From positions 1 to 42,332 of IMG/VR virus record IMGVR_UViG_3300034024_000096: a DNA stretch of 42,332 nt. One strand, written 5' to 3'. Positions within the stretch are counted from its first letter, which is position 1. Each line of letters begins with the position of its first letter. This document shows positions 29,079 through 42,332 of the stretch, in pieces. Position numbers and translations under genes: made by a program. Source of the stretch: a virus. Under the pieces are notes generated by a model that saw only the letters and a program-made list of their open reading frames with translations, made no database searches and was not told the DNA's origin.

Positions 29079-29945
29079 CTATGTGCCCGCCCCGACTGAC
29101 AGCGGTGGCGGCTGTGCGGCGAGGCCGGGCGATGCCGCCATTTGGATGAAGCGCTGCGCCGCCGCGCGCTGTTCGGCCGCCTCGTGGTCGCGGCCCATCA
29201 TTTCGTAAGTCTGCGCCCTGATCTCGGCGGTGCGCGCCCGTGCCTGCCAATCGGTGTTTGCCGCTTTCGGCGCCACCGGGTAACGCACACCGGCCTTGGC
29301 GGCTCGCAGCACCGAGGCGCTGATTTGGACAATGCGGTTGGACCAGGCGCGGGTCCAATCGACCTTCCGAGCCCGAGCGCCACCCTCGGCCAGCCAGAAG
29401 TTGTGATGAGCCTCGGCTTCCGCCTCGTAAGCACCGTCCGGCCATTGCCGCGCCAGCACCCGGGCGTTCGGAGGAAGGCTGTCGATTGGGGGCGTTGTCC
29501 AATCAGCGGGGATCCGCGAAGCTCGTTTTTCTGGGGACGAAGAAGCGCTAGCTTCTTCGGGGAGTTGGTTACTTGAGGGTTTGGGTGCACGTGGTGCGGG
29601 GGTCTTACGCATTTGGTGCGGGGCGCACGGCATGCGGGGCGCACGTCGTGCGGGGGTAGATTCCAGGGGCAGCGCGGCCTGGGGGTGCACGGTGTAAAGC
29701 ACGCCCTTGCCCGGCCGCTCGTCGCGCGTCAGGTGGCCGGCGCTCTCCAGGCGTCTGATGCAGAGCTGGATGCAGCGTTCGCCAAGCGATGTCTTCTGGA
29801 TCAAGCCCTGCTTTCCCGCCCGGCCGTTGATTGGCAGCCAAGTCACGCCGTCGTCGTTCGCGGCGTCCGCGAGCGCCAGCAGCACCATCTTGTCGGTGGC
29901 AGGCATGGCCATGCGCCATGCGATGCTCATCAGGGCGATACTCAT
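29079..29945 (-). CDS. HTH protein, phage replication initiator-like
   Basis: The 288-residue protein begins with a winged-helix module (residues 1-90): MSIALMSIAWRMAMPATDKMVLLALADAANDDG..WLPINGRAGKQGLIQKTSLGERCIQLCIRRLESAGHLTRDERPGKG. This is the pattern of phage O-like replication proteins and related HTH_36 regulators. A Pro/Ser/Ala-rich linker follows, then a C-terminal region FWLAEGGARARKVDWTRAWSNRIVQ that resembles the end of many phage replication proteins. No helicase gene is in the window, so the host DnaB would have to be recruited. Its ATG overlaps the methylase stop (ATGA). Confidence 0.7.
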   Translation of the reverse strand: MSIALMSIAWRMAMPATDKMVLLALADAANDDGVTWLPINGRAGKQGLIQKTSLGERCIQLCIRRLESAGHLTRDERPGKGVLYTVHPQAALPLESTPARRAPRMPCAPHQMRKTPAPRAPKPSSNQLPEEASASSSPEKRASRIPADWTTPPIDSLPPNARVLARQWPDGAYEAEAEAHHNFWLAEGGARARKVDWTRAWSNRIVQISASVLRAAKAGVRYPVAPKAANTDWQARARTAEIRAQTYEMMGRDHEAAEQRAAAQRFIQMAASPGLAAQPPPLSVGAGT

Positions 29946-30793
29946 GCCGCAGCCTCGAATAGCTGCGGCTGCGGGGTCACCTCAGCGCAAGCCGGGTTAA
30001 GCCAGAGTACCTCGATACGCTTGCGGGCGCCGTCGGCCAGCGCCTCCCTCTCTACTCGGCGCCAACCGGTCAGGAAACGGTCGTAAAGAGCGTGAGGATA
30101 GCCGCTAAGGACTACCATGCCCTTCAGACCTCGTGAAAAGTGCAGCAGCTCGGCGTGATCTGCATCGGTCATTTCATGACGGTAGTTGCGCCGCGAGGAG
30201 TTCTTTGCTGGCGACCTGGTCGAATGGACGTAGGGAGGGTCGACGAAGTGCAGAGTCTCGGCGCTGTCCTGCTGGGCCATGACTTCAAGCGCCGGCCGGC
30301 ATTCGATTACCACGCCAGCGACTCTGGCCATTATGCATTCGAGAGCGTCCGAGTAGTTATGCCAGGCGTGCGCGGGCGTGGTGCCAGAGCGATTTGAGTT
30401 CGCGCGGAAACCTGTCAGCCGAGAGCCATTGTGTCCATCGCTGCCGAATCCCATGAACGACCGAATGATGAGCCGGCGGGCGCGCTCAATCGGGTCTTCT
30501 GTATGCTCGTACGCTTCTTCAAACTCGGTCCGCGCGAAGGGTGTCACCACCAGTCTGTGGTGTAGCTCCCACGCCTGCTCATGCGGGCCGCGCAGTATCC
30601 GGAAAAGGTTCACGACATCGTCGTCGAGATCGTTGTATACCTCGGCGTACGATCGCTCTTTCCGGATCAGAACGGACGCGGCACCGCCATACGGCTCAAC
30701 ATATGTGCGATGAGGCGGAAAATGGCTGATTATCCAAGGAGCAAGAAGCCATTTACCGCCATGCCACCGCAGGAGAGGACGAGTGGGCGTCAT
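29942..30793 (-). CDS. D12-class DNA adenine methylase (Dam-like), early region
   Basis: The 283-residue protein has the D12 (N6-adenine, Dam) signature: RWHGGKWLL near the start, EPYGGAAS (residues 33-40), NDLDDDVVNLFR and the catalytic DPPY at about 185-188 in FVDPPYVHSTR. It methylates adenine in a short DNA site, probably to protect phage DNA or time replication. I use the ATG at 30793; a GTG three bases earlier is equally possible. No restriction enzyme gene is adjacent. It is in the early operon between GapR and the replication-like gene. Confidence 0.92.
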   Translation of the reverse strand: MTPTRPLLRWHGGKWLLAPWIISHFPPHRTYVEPYGGAASVLIRKERSYAEVYNDLDDDVVNLFRILRGPHEQAWELHHRLVVTPFARTEFEEAYEHTEDPIERARRLIIRSFMGFGSDGHNGSRLTGFRANSNRSGTTPAHAWHNYSDALECIMARVAGVVIECRPALEVMAQQDSAETLHFVDPPYVHSTRSPAKNSSRRNYRHEMTDADHAELLHFSRGLKGMVVLSGYPHALYDRFLTGWRRVEREALADGARKRIEVLWLNPACAEVTPQPQLFEAAA

Positions 30794-30849
30794 CACGCTA
30801 CGAACCGCTCCGCGATCTTGGTCAAAACATGGATCGATTCCCAGGCCAT
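30793..30849 (-). CDS. Tiny ORF coupling GapR and methylase genes
   Basis: An 18-codon frame ([18 protein letters not shown]) starts in an ATGA overlap with the GapR stop at 30849 and ends in a TGATG overlap with the methylase ATG at 30793. It could be a real micropeptide or only a coupling device that brings ribosomes to the methylase start. It lacks its own ribosome binding site. Confidence 0.25.
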   Translation of the reverse strand: MAWESIHVLTKIAERFVA

Positions 30850-34470: not shown

Positions 34471-34742
34471 TGCGCCACCCGCTCGATTTCTCCGCGCCCC
34501 GCATCAGCGACCTGCCGGCTGACGAAGCCAAGGCTGCGATGCTGGAGCGCGACGCTGCGGCCCGCGCCGCTTGGTGGGCCGGTCGTCAGCGCCGGCCGCT
34601 GGGTACCCGCATTCGTGACTTGCTGCTTCCCCCAGCCTCGGCCGCACACCCCCCGGCGGCTTCCACCCCCCTGGTCGGCGCGTTCGAGGCGCGCGCCGAC
34701 CATATTGCCGGCGCTGGCAATATGGTCGGGGAACAGGGCTGA
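34470..34742 (+). CDS. Small hypothetical protein, 90 residues
   Basis: It begins at the ATG at 34470 (TGATG overlap) and ends in a TGATG overlap with the next gene. The N-terminal part PLDFSAPRISDLPADEAKAAMLERDAAARAAWWAGR is helical and acidic-basic; the C-terminal part is Pro/Ala-rich. A 14-bp perfect inverted repeat (34696-34729) lies within the last codons. No family recognised. Confidence 0.55.
   Translation: MRHPLDFSAPRISDLPADEAKAAMLERDAAARAAWWAGRQRRPLGTRIRDLLLPPASAAHPPAASTPLVGAFEARADHIAGAGNMVGEQG
34696..34729. repeat. 14-bp perfect inverted repeat at gene end
   Basis: CCGACCATATTGCC (34696-34709) and GGCAATATGGTCGG (34716-34729) are exactly complementary with a six-base loop. The stem contains unusual AT-rich bases for this region. 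It lies at the 3' end of the 90-residue gene and 13 bases before the next start; possible attenuator or protein-binding site. Confidence 0.75.
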
Positions 34743-35113
34743 TGGCTGCCGGTCTGCCAATCTGCGGCCCGGGCGAGCTGCTGCTGCCGGAGACGGTGCA
34801 TATCACGCCCTCGAACATCAATCCGTGGCGCGGCGTGCGCCGGCCGGAGAGCCGCTACACGCAGGATCAGCTTCGGATGCTGCATTCGCGCGGCGACGAT
34901 CCCGACACGGTCGAAGACGTGATCGTGCGGCAGAGCGCGAGCCGCCGCGAAAGGTGGTGGCCGGGCCCGAACGCGCCGGTCTTCCTGATGCCGTGCCCAG
35001 TCATTCAGCGCCGCAGGAGCGGCGAGCAGCTGCTGGTCATCACGCCCGCGGGCCACCGCAAGTGGGTCTACGCCGACGGGGCGATCACGAAAGGCAAGAG
35101 ATGGTCGAAGTGA
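34742..35113 (+). CDS. Hypothetical protein, 123 residues
   Basis: The product has a probable beta-rich body with LPICGPGELLLPETVHITPSNINPWRG, a helix around RYTQDQLRMLHSRGDDPDTVEDVI and strands with VFLMPCPVIQRRRSGEQLLVITPAGHRKWVYADG. It overlaps the previous stop (TGATG) and runs 13 bases into the acyl carrier protein gene. I do not know the family. It belongs to the operon between PR and the integrase. Confidence 0.6.
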   Translation: MAAGLPICGPGELLLPETVHITPSNINPWRGVRRPESRYTQDQLRMLHSRGDDPDTVEDVIVRQSASRRERWWPGPNAPVFLMPCPVIQRRRSGEQLLVITPAGHRKWVYADGAITKGKRWSK

Positions 35114-35358
35114 CCGATACCGCCCGGCGCGTCCGGCGCGTGATCCAGATGAGCCTTGGCGTCATGCCGGAGGAGACGAAGGACGATGCGCGCCTGCTTG
35201 AGGACCTTGGCGCCGATAGCCTGGACTGCATCGAGATCGCGATGAGCCTGGAGGACGAGTTCGGCGTGTCGCTCACCGACGACGACGCGGCGGCCATGAT
35301 GACGGTCGGCGGTGCCGTGCGGCTGATCGAGAAGCTGCGGGGAGGGGAGGGCGCATGA
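35101..35358 (+). CDS. Acyl carrier protein
   Basis: The 85-residue protein starts at the ATG at 35101. It has the four-helix ACP pattern with ARRVRRVIQMSLGVMPEETKDDARLLEDLGADSLDCIEIAMSLEDEFGVSLTDDDA. Ser40 in GADSLD is the expected phosphopantetheine attachment site. ACPs carry acyl chains in fatty acid, lipid A or polyketide synthesis. No synthase or acyltransferase is near, so it would have to use host enzymes, or serve as a regulator or substrate donor for a modification. Similar ACPs occur in some alphaproteobacterial phages but their use there is unclear. Confidence 0.9.
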   Translation: MVEVTDTARRVRRVIQMSLGVMPEETKDDARLLEDLGADSLDCIEIAMSLEDEFGVSLTDDDAAAMMTVGGAVRLIEKLRGGEGA

Positions 35359-35819
35359 TCGACTACACCTCACCCGAGGATATGCTCGCCTGGGCCCGCT
35401 CCCGGCTGCAGCGCACGCCCGACTTCATCATCGGGGAGGCTGACCGGCCATATATGCGCCGCTGGTGGATCATTCCGCGCAATGTCGGCTGTAACGTTTA
35501 CTTGCACGAAATCTTGCGGAGCGACGACGATCGCGCGCTTCACGACCATCCCTGGGACAATACATCGATGTTGCTGGACGGCAGCTATGTCGAGCACACC
35601 CCTGCGGGCTCGTTTCTCCGCGAGGCGGGCAGCGTCGTTCATCGCCAAGCGACAGACGCGCACCGGCTGGAGGTTCTCGAAGGCGGGCGAGCTCTGTCGC
35701 TTTTCATGACAGGTCCGAAGCTGCGGGAGTGGGGCTTCCACTGCCCGAAGGGCTGGGTGCACTGGCGCGACTTCACCGGCGGCGCAAACGGCGAAATCGT
35801 CGGTCGGGGCTGTGACTGA
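35355..35819 (+). CDS. Cupin-like protein
   Basis: The 154-residue protein overlaps the ACP gene by four bases (ATGA). It has the small cupin-type barrel pattern: YMRRWWIIPRNVGCNVYLHEILRSDDDRALHDHPWDNTSMLLDGSYVEHTPAG, then RQATDAHRLEVLEGGRALSLFMTGPKLREWGFHCPKGWVHW. Metal-binding residues likely include His in LHDHPW and in AHRL. Members are found in several phages; substrate unknown. The pairing with an ACP gene raises the thought of a shared small-molecule or lipid modification, which is speculative. Confidence 0.75.
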   Translation: MIDYTSPEDMLAWARSRLQRTPDFIIGEADRPYMRRWWIIPRNVGCNVYLHEILRSDDDRALHDHPWDNTSMLLDGSYVEHTPAGSFLREAGSVVHRQATDAHRLEVLEGGRALSLFMTGPKLREWGFHCPKGWVHWRDFTGGANGEIVGRGCD

Positions 35820-36061
35820 TGGGTCTCCCGCTCGCCAAGCTGCCCGAGTGGCCGGCCGCGATGAACCGCCCGTGGGCGCTCGCCTATACCGGCGTGTCAG
35901 AGGCGCAGATGCGGCTGTGGCAGCGTACCGGGCGCGTGCGCTTCAAGGCGAGCGGGCCCAAGGGCGAGCTGCTCGCGCGCCGGGTCGATCTGGACGCAGC
36001 GCTGGCCGATCTCTTCGCGATCGTCGACACGTCAGAGGACCTCTCCTTTGGCGACGACTAA
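35819..36061 (+). CDS. Excisionase-like small DNA-binding protein
   Basis: The 80-residue protein, ATG at 35819, contains a winged-helix-like pattern WALAYTGVSEAQMRLWQRTGRVRFKASGPKGELLARRVDLDAALADL. It lies directly before the integrase gene, which starts inside its last codons (TTG at 36048). Such small MerR/Xis-like proteins commonly set the direction of recombination. The function is inferred from place and fold. Confidence 0.7.
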   Translation: MGLPLAKLPEWPAAMNRPWALAYTGVSEAQMRLWQRTGRVRFKASGPKGELLARRVDLDAALADLFAIVDTSEDLSFGDD

Positions 36062-37340
36062 GCTGCCGGCCTACGTCCAGAAGAAGAGACTGGCGACGGG
36101 CGCGACCGCGCACTTCTGGGTTCGGCCGCAATGGGCACACCCGGATCACGCGCGCAGCGAAGATCCGAAGAAGCGCCGGCTGGCGGTTCGCAACGGCCGG
36201 ACCTGCCCGATCGAATCGGAGCCGCTCGGCACGGACGTCGGCGTGGCCATTCAGAAGGGCGAAGCCCTCACCGAAGCCTTCCGACAGTGGTGCGCAGGCG
36301 TCGACTCCAGCCGGGTGGCCGGCACTATCCGCTGGCTCTTCGCCTGGTATCGGGAGCAGGACGAGTTCACCGACCTGAAGTACAAGACCCGGAAGGGCTA
36401 TGGCGAGGCGATGGATCAGGTCTCCGAGATGCCCATGAAGGTGGGGGTCTTCGGCGAGAAGCGCGCCAAGGCGATCGACACCGAGACCGCGGACAAGCTC
36501 TACAGCCGGGCGCGGAAGAAACACGGCGAGCGCCAGGGCGCTTATATGATGCAGGTCTGCCGGCTGGTGTGGAACTTGGCCGGTCGCCGCACGCGCGAGA
36601 CCGGCATCAAGCATAAGGAGAACCCCTTCAGCGGCATGGGCATCGCCAGCAGCTCGGGAAAGGGGAAGGGCAACATGGCCGCGACCCGGGCGCAGTTCGA
36701 TGCCTATCGCGCCGCAGCGCGCGAGATGGGCAAGCAGAGCATGGTGACCGCAGCCGTGCTCTGCTTCGAGGGCTGCCAGCGGGTCTGGGATGCGTTCGGG
36801 TTCGTCGACCCCGACGGGCGCGACACGCGCGGCATTATGTGGGAAGGCTATCGCCCAGGCGAATATCTCGACCTGATCCAGTCGAAGACCGGCAACTATG
36901 TCCGGATCCCGCTTGCGGACGTCGTTATGGTGGACGGCAAGCCGGAGCGGGTTCAGCTCTATCCCGATCTGGAGGAGGAGCTGTCGCGCAGCGCCGCGGC
37001 CGAGCGGGCGCGGACGGGCAGGGAGCCCACCGGCATCATCGTGCGCGATGAGCGCACCGGCCAGGCGTACAGCGAGAGCTATATGTCGAAGCTGCACCGA
37101 CGGGTGCGTGCGAAGGCCAGCCTGCCGGCGGACGTGCGCTTCACCAGCTTCCGGCACGGCGGCACGACAGAGATCGGCGATGCTGGCGAGGCCGACCCGC
37201 GCGCGGCCACCGGTCACAAGACGCTCGATACGACCGCAATCTACAACAAGGCGAACCTGGAGAAGGCGCGCCGCATCGCGCTGCTCCGCCGGCAGCACGT
37301 CGCCATGCTCACGGCCGGTGACGACGGCGAGGATGGCTGA
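36048..37340 (+). CDS. int: Tyrosine recombinase (phage integrase)
   Basis: The 430-residue protein starts at a TTG (36048) within the excisionase-like gene, after AGAGGACC. The core-binding domain is at about 85-180 and the catalytic domain at 215-425. Likely catalytic residues are Arg245 (FEGCQRVWDAF), Lys280 (QSKTGNYV), Arg369 (FTSFRHGG, where the usual first His is Thr366), His390 (TGHKTL) and nucleophile Tyr399 (TAIYNK). It should integrate the phage at a host att site. No att duplication or tRNA gene could be found in the window. Confidence 0.95.
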   Translation: MATTKLPAYVQKKRLATGATAHFWVRPQWAHPDHARSEDPKKRRLAVRNGRTCPIESEPLGTDVGVAIQKGEALTEAFRQWCAGVDSSRVAGTIRWLFAWYREQDEFTDLKYKTRKGYGEAMDQVSEMPMKVGVFGEKRAKAIDTETADKLYSRARKKHGERQGAYMMQVCRLVWNLAGRRTRETGIKHKENPFSGMGIASSSGKGKGNMAATRAQFDAYRAAAREMGKQSMVTAAVLCFEGCQRVWDAFGFVDPDGRDTRGIMWEGYRPGEYLDLIQSKTGNYVRIPLADVVMVDGKPERVQLYPDLEEELSRSAAAERARTGREPTGIIVRDERTGQAYSESYMSKLHRRVRAKASLPADVRFTSFRHGGTTEIGDAGEADPRAATGHKTLDTTAIYNKANLEKARRIALLRRQHVAMLTAGDDGEDG

Positions 37341-40066: not shown

Positions 40067-41386
40067 ATGGTAATCGCTTCACGGCGCGCGAAGAAGCCTG
40101 CTGTACCGTTTGAGCAGGTCGGCGATGTTCCGATCGGCCGCGTCTTTCTGGCGCTCAACAATCCTCGTCACGAAGTCGTTGAGACCGAGGCGGAGGCGAT
40201 CGAGCGCCTGTGCACAAAAGAGGACGTTCTTCCGCTCGCCCGCGACATCGTGAAGCACGGGCTAAGTCCGCTCGAACGTTTCGCGATGACGCCGATTGGG
40301 CGAACAAAAGGGGGCGATGCCACCTACTGGGTGGCCGAGGGCAATCGCCGAGTCTGTGCCCTGAAGCTGCTCACCGATCCGGAATCAGCTCCGCCGCGGT
40401 TTCGCAGGAACTTCGAGAAGCTGTCGTCTCAGTGGACGCCCATCAAGGTCGTCGATGCGGTCGTGTTCAATGATCCGGATACGCTGAACACCTGGCTCGA
40501 CCGCGTGCACAGTGGCCCCCAGGGCGGTGTGGGCCGCAAGAGCTGGGATGCCGAACAGAAGCAGCGCTTCTCCGGCAGCTCCAAGAACAAGCTTGCCCAG
40601 GCCGTACTCGACTATGCCGAAACCGAAGGCATGATCACGAAGGCTGAGCGCGAGGGCAAACTCACCACCGCGCAGCGCTTCCTCAACCCGGAAGTGTTCC
40701 AAGAGGCGCTGGGCCTAGATCGGACCAATCCGGACGAGTTGAGCCGGACACGCCCGAAGGCCGAGTTCGACACGATCTTGAAGCGATTTATGCGCGACTT
40801 GGTCGCAGGAACGGACGTCACGTCTCGCAAAAATAAGACTGAGATCGTCCAGTACGCTCGGACCTTGGCAGCCTTGCCGGGCGTGACCAGCGCCCGGATC
40901 GAAGCCGAGCCGATTGGCACCGACGGCGCCGGGCCGAAGCGCCGGGCGCGGCGCAAGCCTAAAAAGCCGCAGAAGGCTCGGCACGTCCAGTATGAGGAGG
41001 ACATTTTCCAAGCGTTGAAGAGCCTTGGAAACGAGAAGCTGAGCAGCCTGTACCATTCCATCTGCGCCTTGGAACTGGAACACCATGTGCCGCTCGCATC
41101 GATCGGCGCGTGGGCGTTCATCGAAACCCTGACCGGCGCCGCCGGCCGCAACGATGGCACTTCGTTCGATGCCTTTCTCACGAAGCAACGCCTCAGTCAC
41201 TTCGGCATCACCGGGGATGATCAGAAAGTGATCCGCACAGCGCTCACCCGGACGGCGGATTATGGCAACATGACTAAGCACCATAAGGTGTCGGCAGCCT
41301 TCAACGGGGACCAGTTGAACAACGATATGATCCTGCTGAAGCCAGTGATCTTGAAGTGCATCGAGGCGGCCGCAGCGGCCGGCTGA
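40067..41386 (+). CDS. ParB/Srx-fold protein with HEPN-like C-terminus
   Basis: I start at the ATG at 40067 because AGGGGG lies 6 bases upstream (439 residues). Residues 20-105 have the ParB/sulfiredoxin pattern: LNNPRHEVVETEAEAIERLC, LARDIVKHGLSPLERFAMTPIG and AEGNRRVCALKLL (90-102). The middle is helical and charged; a basic linker (KRRARRKPKKPQKAR) lies near 290-307. The C-terminal 110 residues are helical with LSSLYHSICALELEHHVPLASIGAWAFIETLTG and NMTKHHKVSAAFNGDQLNNDM (from Asn401), resembling HEPN-like domains. It is followed after 67 bases by a D12 methylase gene. A defence or modification-linked enzyme is likely but not shown. Confidence 0.7.
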   Translation: MVIASRRAKKPAVPFEQVGDVPIGRVFLALNNPRHEVVETEAEAIERLCTKEDVLPLARDIVKHGLSPLERFAMTPIGRTKGGDATYWVAEGNRRVCALKLLTDPESAPPRFRRNFEKLSSQWTPIKVVDAVVFNDPDTLNTWLDRVHSGPQGGVGRKSWDAEQKQRFSGSSKNKLAQAVLDYAETEGMITKAEREGKLTTAQRFLNPEVFQEALGLDRTNPDELSRTRPKAEFDTILKRFMRDLVAGTDVTSRKNKTEIVQYARTLAALPGVTSARIEAEPIGTDGAGPKRRARRKPKKPQKARHVQYEEDIFQALKSLGNEKLSSLYHSICALELEHHVPLASIGAWAFIETLTGAAGRNDGTSFDAFLTKQRLSHFGITGDDQKVIRTALTRTADYGNMTKHHKVSAAFNGDQLNNDMILLKPVILKCIEAAAAAG

Positions 41387-41416
41387 TTTTGCTGGCCGAG
41401 CATTAACGGAATCGCT

Positions 41417-41442
41417 AAACCCCTCTCGATATTAGAGGGTTT
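41417..41442. promoter_or_regulatory. Hairpin before the second methylase gene
   Basis: CCCTCT (41421-41426) pairs with AGAGGG (41434-41439), extended by AA/TT after one mismatch, across a 7-base AT-rich loop. It lies between the ParB-like gene and the methylase start (GTG at 41454), where it could reduce readthrough or adjust methylase translation. Confidence 0.45.
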
Positions 41443-41453
41443 GGAGGCCCAAG

Positions 41454-42332
41454 GTGCGCGCAACATCACCGCTGAGATACCCGGGCGGCAAGGCATGCAT
41501 GCTAGAGCTCACGTCCAGCATCATGCGGCTGAACCGGCTCGAACGGGGCCACTATGCTGAACCATTCGCAGGCGGGTGCGGCCTGGCGCTCTCGCTGCTC
41601 TACACTGGCCAAGTCGCCGAAGTTCACATCAATGATCTGGATCCGGCGATCTGGGCTTTCTGGCATTCGGTGTTGAACGAAACGGACGCGCTTGCCGCTA
41701 TGGTCGCGGAGGCTCCGGTGACAATCAACGAGTGGCACCGCCAGCGTGACCTGCATCGGACGGGGGACGCGAGCGATCCGCTAAAGCTGGGTTTTGCTGC
41801 CTTCTTCCTTAATCGAACGAACCGCTCGGGCATCATCAAGGGCGGCGGCGTCATCGGCGGCCTCGATCAGACCGGCAACTATAAGATCGACTGCCGCTTC
41901 AACGTCGACGACTTGGTGCGACGAATGCGGAGGGTCGCCCGCTACAAAGACCGCATCCATCTCTCGAACGATGACGCGACTGCCTTTCTCGCGAACTGCT
42001 CGAACCTTCCGTCAAACTCGCTGCTGTTCATCGATCCGCCCTATTACAAGAAGGGCCCTGGCCTTTACACCAGCTTCTACAAACCGGCCGACCATGCCCA
42101 GCTGGCCGAGCAGGTGTTGCAGCTCACGGCACCCTGGATCGTCACGTATGACGATGTGACGCCAATTCGCGAACTCTATCGAGCGCGCCGACAGTTCTGT
42201 TTCGACATCAACTATTCGCTTCAGGAAAAGCGGATTGGCACCGAGCTTCTGGTCGCATCAAAGGGCCTGCGAATGCCTGAACAGGCGCGCGAGCGACAGG
42301 TAAACCGACCGCCTCAGCGGCTGGCGGCGTAG
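41454..42332 (+). CDS. D12-class DNA adenine methylase (Dam-like), right edge
   Basis: The 292-residue protein starts at a GTG (41454) after GGAGG. Signature segments: LRYPGGKACML (7-17), AEPFAGGCGLALSLL (35-49), INDLDPAIWAFW, FFLNRTNRSGIIKGGGVIGG and the catalytic IDPPYYKKGPGLYTSFY with DPPY at 194-197. All parts of a working N6-adenine methylase are present. It is clearly different in sequence from the early-region methylase at 29942-30793. Together with the ParB/HEPN-like gene it makes a two-gene unit; the methylase may mark self DNA or antagonise its partner. Confidence 0.92.
   Translation: MRATSPLRYPGGKACMLELTSSIMRLNRLERGHYAEPFAGGCGLALSLLYTGQVAEVHINDLDPAIWAFWHSVLNETDALAAMVAEAPVTINEWHRQRDLHRTGDASDPLKLGFAAFFLNRTNRSGIIKGGGVIGGLDQTGNYKIDCRFNVDDLVRRMRRVARYKDRIHLSNDDATAFLANCSNLPSNSLLFIDPPYYKKGPGLYTSFYKPADHAQLAEQVLQLTAPWIVTYDDVTPIRELYRARRQFCFDINYSLQEKRIGTELLVASKGLRMPEQARERQVNRPPQRLAA

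Follow-up and report, generated by a model that had tools for sequence, protein, structure and literature searches.

We analyzed a window of 42,332 bases that comprises a whole IMG/VR virus record, in which terminase, portal and tape-measure genes confirm the presence of a tailed phage. Two co-directional genes lie at its end on the + strand, ORF A (40067-41386, 439 residues) and ORF B (41454-42332, 292 residues), separated by a gap of 67 nucleotides; coordinates, strand, lengths and gap are as given in a preliminary description of this DNA. ORF A starts with the ATG at 40067, preceded by a plausible ribosome-binding site (AGGGGGAATTCGATG), and ORF B with a GTG codon at 41454. The pair had been placed beyond the phage integrase, and it is indeed found to the right of the gene at 36048-37340, but the assignment of this gene as an integrase has sub-threshold profile support only. 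An SRAP gene, a DUF6894 gene and an unknown ORF are located between it and the pair. Just left of the integrase, at 34615-35819, PHROG annotations point to acyl-carrier-like and cysteine-dioxygenase-family proteins, an unusual phage cargo. No tRNA genes were found in the window. It is possible, if rather unlikely, that A and B are host DNA adjoining the prophage and not part of the prophage itself: the record ends exactly at the stop codon of B, a direct-repeat search of the window gave no credible att site, and the SRAP and DUF6894 genes separate the integrase from the pair. The closest relative of the pair (L044; identities of 74% and 79%) is located next to phage tail genes, however, and the pair is also present in the genome of Paracoccus phage Pkon1, both of which argue for a place within the prophage.

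A matches the PADLOC profile PD-Lambda-5_A (PDLC04000, E 6.6e-169) over residues 18-435, and B matches PD-Lambda-5_B (PDLC04018, E 3e-118) over residues 3-283; Pfam and NCBIfam profiles provided nothing useful for A. Based on these matches, the pair is almost certainly a new copy of the known two-gene anti-phage system PD-Lambda-5, with which it shares gene content, gene order and orientation, profile matches over the full length of the proteins and the prophage association of relatives. The earlier suggestion of a defense module is thus supported, but the accompanying statement that no system with exactly this pair had been described is wrong. Vassallo et al. (2022) discovered PD-Lambda-5 in E. 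coli by selection for phage resistance; it protected this host from almost all of the 10 phages used and is termed a compact prophage 'RM+Abi' system (PMC9519451), although the text consulted does not state whether it acts by abortive infection or directly. PD-Lambda-5 ranks among the systems with the most frequent prophage location (PMC10482375). We found no description of its mark, trigger or effector in the literature searched.

Relatives were gathered by alignment-based contig scans and record searches; an alignment was required, as single-sequence searches with A in viral and genome contigs returned no matches. They occur in Alpha-, Beta- and Gammaproteobacteria, Acidobacteriota, Zixiibacteriota, Desulfobacteraceae and Bacillota, as well as on plasmids and in phages. 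The aligned relatives of A share 21-74% identity with the protein from the window; they do not include the E. coli type sequence, which a DNA search with the Kosakonia copy did not recover. The preliminary description would have been refuted by homologues of the two genes that never occur together; this is not the case, as in 44 non-redundant relatives B is located directly downstream of A on the same strand, with a median gap of 46 nucleotides (four further contigs were too short for this count). Exceptions are a convergent B-type gene (L003), two loci with no adjacent B (L006, L008) and one in which A is broken by an IS element (L009). In two contigs of a single Burkholderiales MAG (L018, L019), near-identical copies carry an interrupted A frame and an open B frame. 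A is present in only 4 of 100 genomes from a single alphaproteobacterial order, a sporadic distribution as expected for defense. Saturation of synonymous changes made a comparison of dN/dS with the closest relative uninformative. We consider it improbable that the pair is a toxin-antitoxin module or a methylation-controlled gene switch that serves mainly prophage maintenance and not defense. A toxin-like protein paired with a modifying enzyme would fit such a role, as would the prophage setting of relatives, one beside the tail genes mentioned above and another (L045) located between an upstream integrase and a downstream phage replication gene, but the phage-resistance selection that uncovered the family, and its protection against most phages tested (PMC9519451), speak for defense.

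The AlphaFold2 model of full-length A (mean pLDDT 87.5, pTM 0.49) is a confident two-part model, with the low pTM probably caused by the two halves floating relative to each other. The N-terminal domain (about residues 15-150, 40109-40516) has Foldseek matches to Noc (7ol9, E 2.5e-3), ParB (7o0n) and sulfiredoxins at probabilities of 0.97-1.0. The ParB_N sequence profile is reached only below threshold (6/33), and a PDB sequence search with a profile of A returned chance matches only (an integrin, and a ParB-like nuclease at E 1.3). The model thus supports a ParB/Srx fold for this part of A, bearing out the earlier assignment. The domain contains an EGNRR motif (residues 91-95, 40337-40351), in which Glu-91 is kept in 95% and Gly-92, Asn-93, Arg-94 and Arg-95 in 100% of 44 homologues. 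The residues highlighted in the preliminary description (GNRR at 92-95, and Gly-400, Asn-401, Met-402, Thr-403, Lys-404, His-405 and His-406) exist at these positions, and their conservation indicates that they are not chance occurrences. DUF262/GmrSD type IV enzymes likewise couple a ParB/Srx-type N terminus to a nuclease-type domain and have a role in defense, but they contain DGQQR in place of EGNRR, and A has no detectable HNH/DUF1524 domain and is paired with a methylase.

The C-terminal 137 residues of A (303-439, 40973-41383) are modeled as helices with high confidence (pLDDT 93.4, pTM 0.88). Profile-profile comparison (hhalign) with fourteen DUF4145 (HEPN) domains gave a probability of 58.7% for the clade containing our sequence (pairwise E 9.4e-5) and of 88.5% for its sister clade (pairwise E 2.8e-6), with reversed controls below 1%. 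In the alignment, Glu-353 and the GNxTKH motif of A are in register with the conserved glutamate and GNxAxH of DUF4145. The motif in A, GNMTKH (residues 400-405, 41264-41281), is kept at Gly-400, Asn-401, Thr-403, Lys-404 and His-405 in 17/17 close relatives. A Foldseek search with the domain had its best HEPN match in 4nqf, which is not significant (TM 0.45, E 3.0, probability 0.20), and a search of viral models produced nothing useful. It is likely from the profile comparison that the C terminus is HEPN-like, as had been suggested, but the case for RNase activity is weaker than first put forward. The HEPN active site is defined as Rx4-6H in a survey of these domains (PMC3710099). This motif is missing in A, where Gly-400 and Asn-401 are followed after three residues by His-405, and a glycine thus takes the position of the arginine. 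Forms with GN-x3-H are also common among DUF4145 sequences. The nearest conserved arginine is Arg-395 (16/17), and Arg-395 and Lys-404 are possible substitutes for the HEPN arginine. The same survey lists ParB-HEPN fusions (Saro_3948 and others) and also some HEPN genes, such as MAE_28990, whose operons include genes for ParB and a methylase (PMC3710099). Such fusions resemble A in joining a ParB-type domain to a HEPN domain, though not necessarily as members of the same family; the Saro_3948 gene was not found in the stretch examined, and Novosphingobium is absent among the plasmid matches of A. The two clades differ in the C terminus of A, and clades of PD-Lambda-5_A (for example L024, L028 and L037-L040) carry distinct C-terminal types behind a conserved ParB half, which suggests divergence or exchange of effector domains behind one sensor.

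The main rival to an RNase mechanism is that A restricts DNA directly, its ParB/Srx domain acting as an NTP-driven nickase or nuclease on unmarked DNA while the C-terminal helices only dimerize or bind the partner protein. We regard this as the less probable reading, although restriction proteins, GmrS for example, contain ParB/Srx-type domains (PMC10952713), the strongest conservation of A is N-terminal and its HEPN motif is degenerate. In addition, distances in the N-terminal half of A track those of B better than distances in the C-terminal half (Spearman 0.80 versus 0.44, 42 pairs). This overall advantage is largely gone within the two subgroups, however, where the correlations of both halves with B are similar. 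Furthermore, Glu-353, Gly-400, Asn-401, Thr-403, Lys-404 and His-405 are as conserved within the clade as the N-terminal motif, which would be more easily explained by an active site than by a scaffold.

The partner gene B was previously termed a complete Dam-type methylase. It is complete and belongs to the D12 class of DNA methyltransferases, scoring 42.6 bits with the Pfam profile MethyltransfD12 (cut-off 22), with a catalytic DPPY motif (residues 194-197, 42033-42044) that is kept in at least 93% of 66 homologues. Its score against TIGR00571 (dam) is only 39.2 bits, far below the curated cut-off of 114.85, and B is thus not assigned to the Dam (GATC) methylases. A second D12 methylase gene is located in the phage early region of the window (29942-30796, - strand), and four relatives (L013, L046, L055, L057) likewise have a gene of this type no more than about 1 kb away from the A-B pair.

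We identified a promoter-like element in the gap between A and B. It consists of TGGCCG (41393-41398), a spacer of 17 nucleotides and TAAACC (41416-41421). Of 66 B loci, made non-redundant at 80% identity or less, 38 have an upstream element of the form TGGCC[A/G]-N17-TA, whereas shuffled sequences contain a mean of 0.38 and a maximum of 3 copies; the next best 5-mer upstream of B reaches 8 loci compared with 38 for TGGCC. There are 26 of the 66 loci without the element at a spacing of 16-18 nucleotides, and several of these have overlapping genes. Apart from the element, the gaps between A and B are mostly unalignable. Upstream of A, the element occurs at chance level, with one copy at a 16-nucleotide spacing where shuffles of these stretches, which are partly overlong, predict 1.3, and only B would thus be self-regulated. 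A TGGCCG box characterizes the clade of our sequence and TGGCCA its sister clade. When mapped on the methylase tree, the last base of the box is G in one supported clade (16 G, 7 without element, 0 A) and one outlier, and A elsewhere. All members of the G clade have Arg-245 in B, compared with at most 10% of the A group, a correlation confounded by shared ancestry. In the literature searched, the TGGCC(A/G) promoter box of the PD-Lambda-5 methylase gene has apparently not been reported. We dismissed a GANTC (CcrM) site in the gap as a conserved element, since it is present in the window but, judged by eye, not in all relatives. An inverted repeat (AAACCCcTCT...AGAgGGTTT, 41417-41442) overlaps the -10 box and the leader of B in the window and is not obviously conserved in relatives.

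The element is also found outside the A-B pair. In E. coli (L064, L065), in Citrobacter phage phiNP (L141) and in a Streptococcus phage (L142), B homologues neighbor an ATPase instead of a ParB protein, and the element precedes the methylase gene in all four cases. The element therefore belongs to the methylase. One of the E. coli methylases (L064) scores as PD-Lambda-5_B (5.8e-124), and its ATPase and that of the Streptococcus phage, the two tested, resemble PtuA, GajA and AriA. Loci in which a B-family methylase, often with the TGGCCA box in front of it, is paired with an ATPase are L064 (2924-5636), L065 (2930-5579), L142 (1223-3858), L141 and L140; the ATPase is of the AAA/ATP-dependent-nuclease type in the E. 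coli, Citrobacter and Streptococcus elements and of the AAA type in A. baumannii. These methylase-ATPase pairs possibly represent a separate defense system that shares the writer.

The conservation pattern suggests that the TGGCC(A/G) box is probably the site marked by B. TGGCCA is a known methylase target: A. baumannii MT2 was shown by expression to generate N4-methylcytosine (m4C) at position 4 of TGGCCA (PMC10287943), and the type II alpha methyltransferase E1N14_009720 of S. algae has been assigned m4C at the same sequence (PMC8340859). TGGCCA is also predicted for a solitary alpha methyltransferase in Chania and for a 'phage N6 methylase' in A. woodii, and C. difficile CD0935 confers protection against BalI (PMC4320837). 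In contrast, P. luminescens contains m6A and not m4C at TGGCCA, set by the product of an unassigned gene. The A. baumannii and S. algae enzymes carry an annotation as DNA adenine methylases or have been placed in a group with these, as is the case for B, and their target is the promoter box of most B relatives, the box in the window being TGGCCG; we liken them to B by annotation and by the match of their target to the box of its relatives. By analogy with these enzymes, the mark set by B may be m4C. If the marked base is a cytosine, the change from TGGCCA to TGGCCG would be compatible with a YGGCCR-type site. McrBC attacks RmC, m4C included (PMC2614495), and m4C after a G would create such a site. 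This would fit the testing of PD-Lambda-5 in a host that lacked a region containing mrr (PMC9519451), where a toxic new mark could be tolerated; we infer that this deletion also removed mcrBC. The box could instead be a plain -35 element or be bound by another factor, with B neither recognizing it nor regulating itself. It is separated from TA by 17 nucleotides, the optimum for sigma-70, TGGCCA matches TTGACA at 4 of 6 bases, and our literature search gave no methylome of any family member. We nevertheless think this unlikely, as every one of the 38 spaced copies, from Proteobacteria, Bacillota and Acidobacteriota alike, keeps TGGCC despite variation in the rest of the spacer, as TGGCCA is a target of alpha-type methylases, and as the A/G variant tracks the methyltransferase tree.

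We propose that B marks its own recognition sites on host and prophage DNA, most likely of the TGGCCR type and TGGCCG in the clade of our sequence. B would be transcribed from its own promoter inside the gap, with a -35 box that doubles as a B site, and its output would fall once this site is methylated or bound. As the promoter of B carries a B site, modification should be self-limiting. A would survey DNA through its ParB/Srx domain, and incoming DNA with unmarked sites would trigger its HEPN-like domain; the cleavage of RNA expected from this domain would stop the infected cell or the phage. The first steps of this scheme are suggested by sequence conservation, and the action of the HEPN-like domain on unmarked DNA by analogy with its family; taken as a whole, we give the mechanism an even chance.

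Methylases that regulate their own operon are known from the R-M systems CfrBI and LlaJI. The SsoII methylase also regulates its own R-M system (PMC6100179), and in such systems a methylase acting on its own promoter balances marking and attack, as we propose for B. In the PD-Lambda-5 pair, unlike in R-M systems of the SsoII type, autoregulation is predicted from conserved sequence, and the system operates with no restriction endonuclease. A broader, more tentative reading, to which we give somewhat less than an even chance, is that PD-Lambda-5 methylases are TGGCCR (YGGCCR-type) enzymes that probably modify the N4 position of cytosine and not adenine, and that use their own site as their own -35 box. 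The same self-regulated writer would then serve several unrelated effectors, a ParB-HEPN protein here and a PtuA/GajA-like ATPase in the E. coli, Citrobacter and Streptococcus elements, and together these would form a modular writer-plus-sensor class of defense that operates without classical restriction enzymes.

PD-Lambda-5 is widespread and prophage-borne, and its conserved promoter element now provides a concrete, testable prediction of the methylase target. The element also predicts how the cell would balance the writer against a dangerous reader, and it links PD-Lambda-5 to methylases that are paired with quite different effectors.
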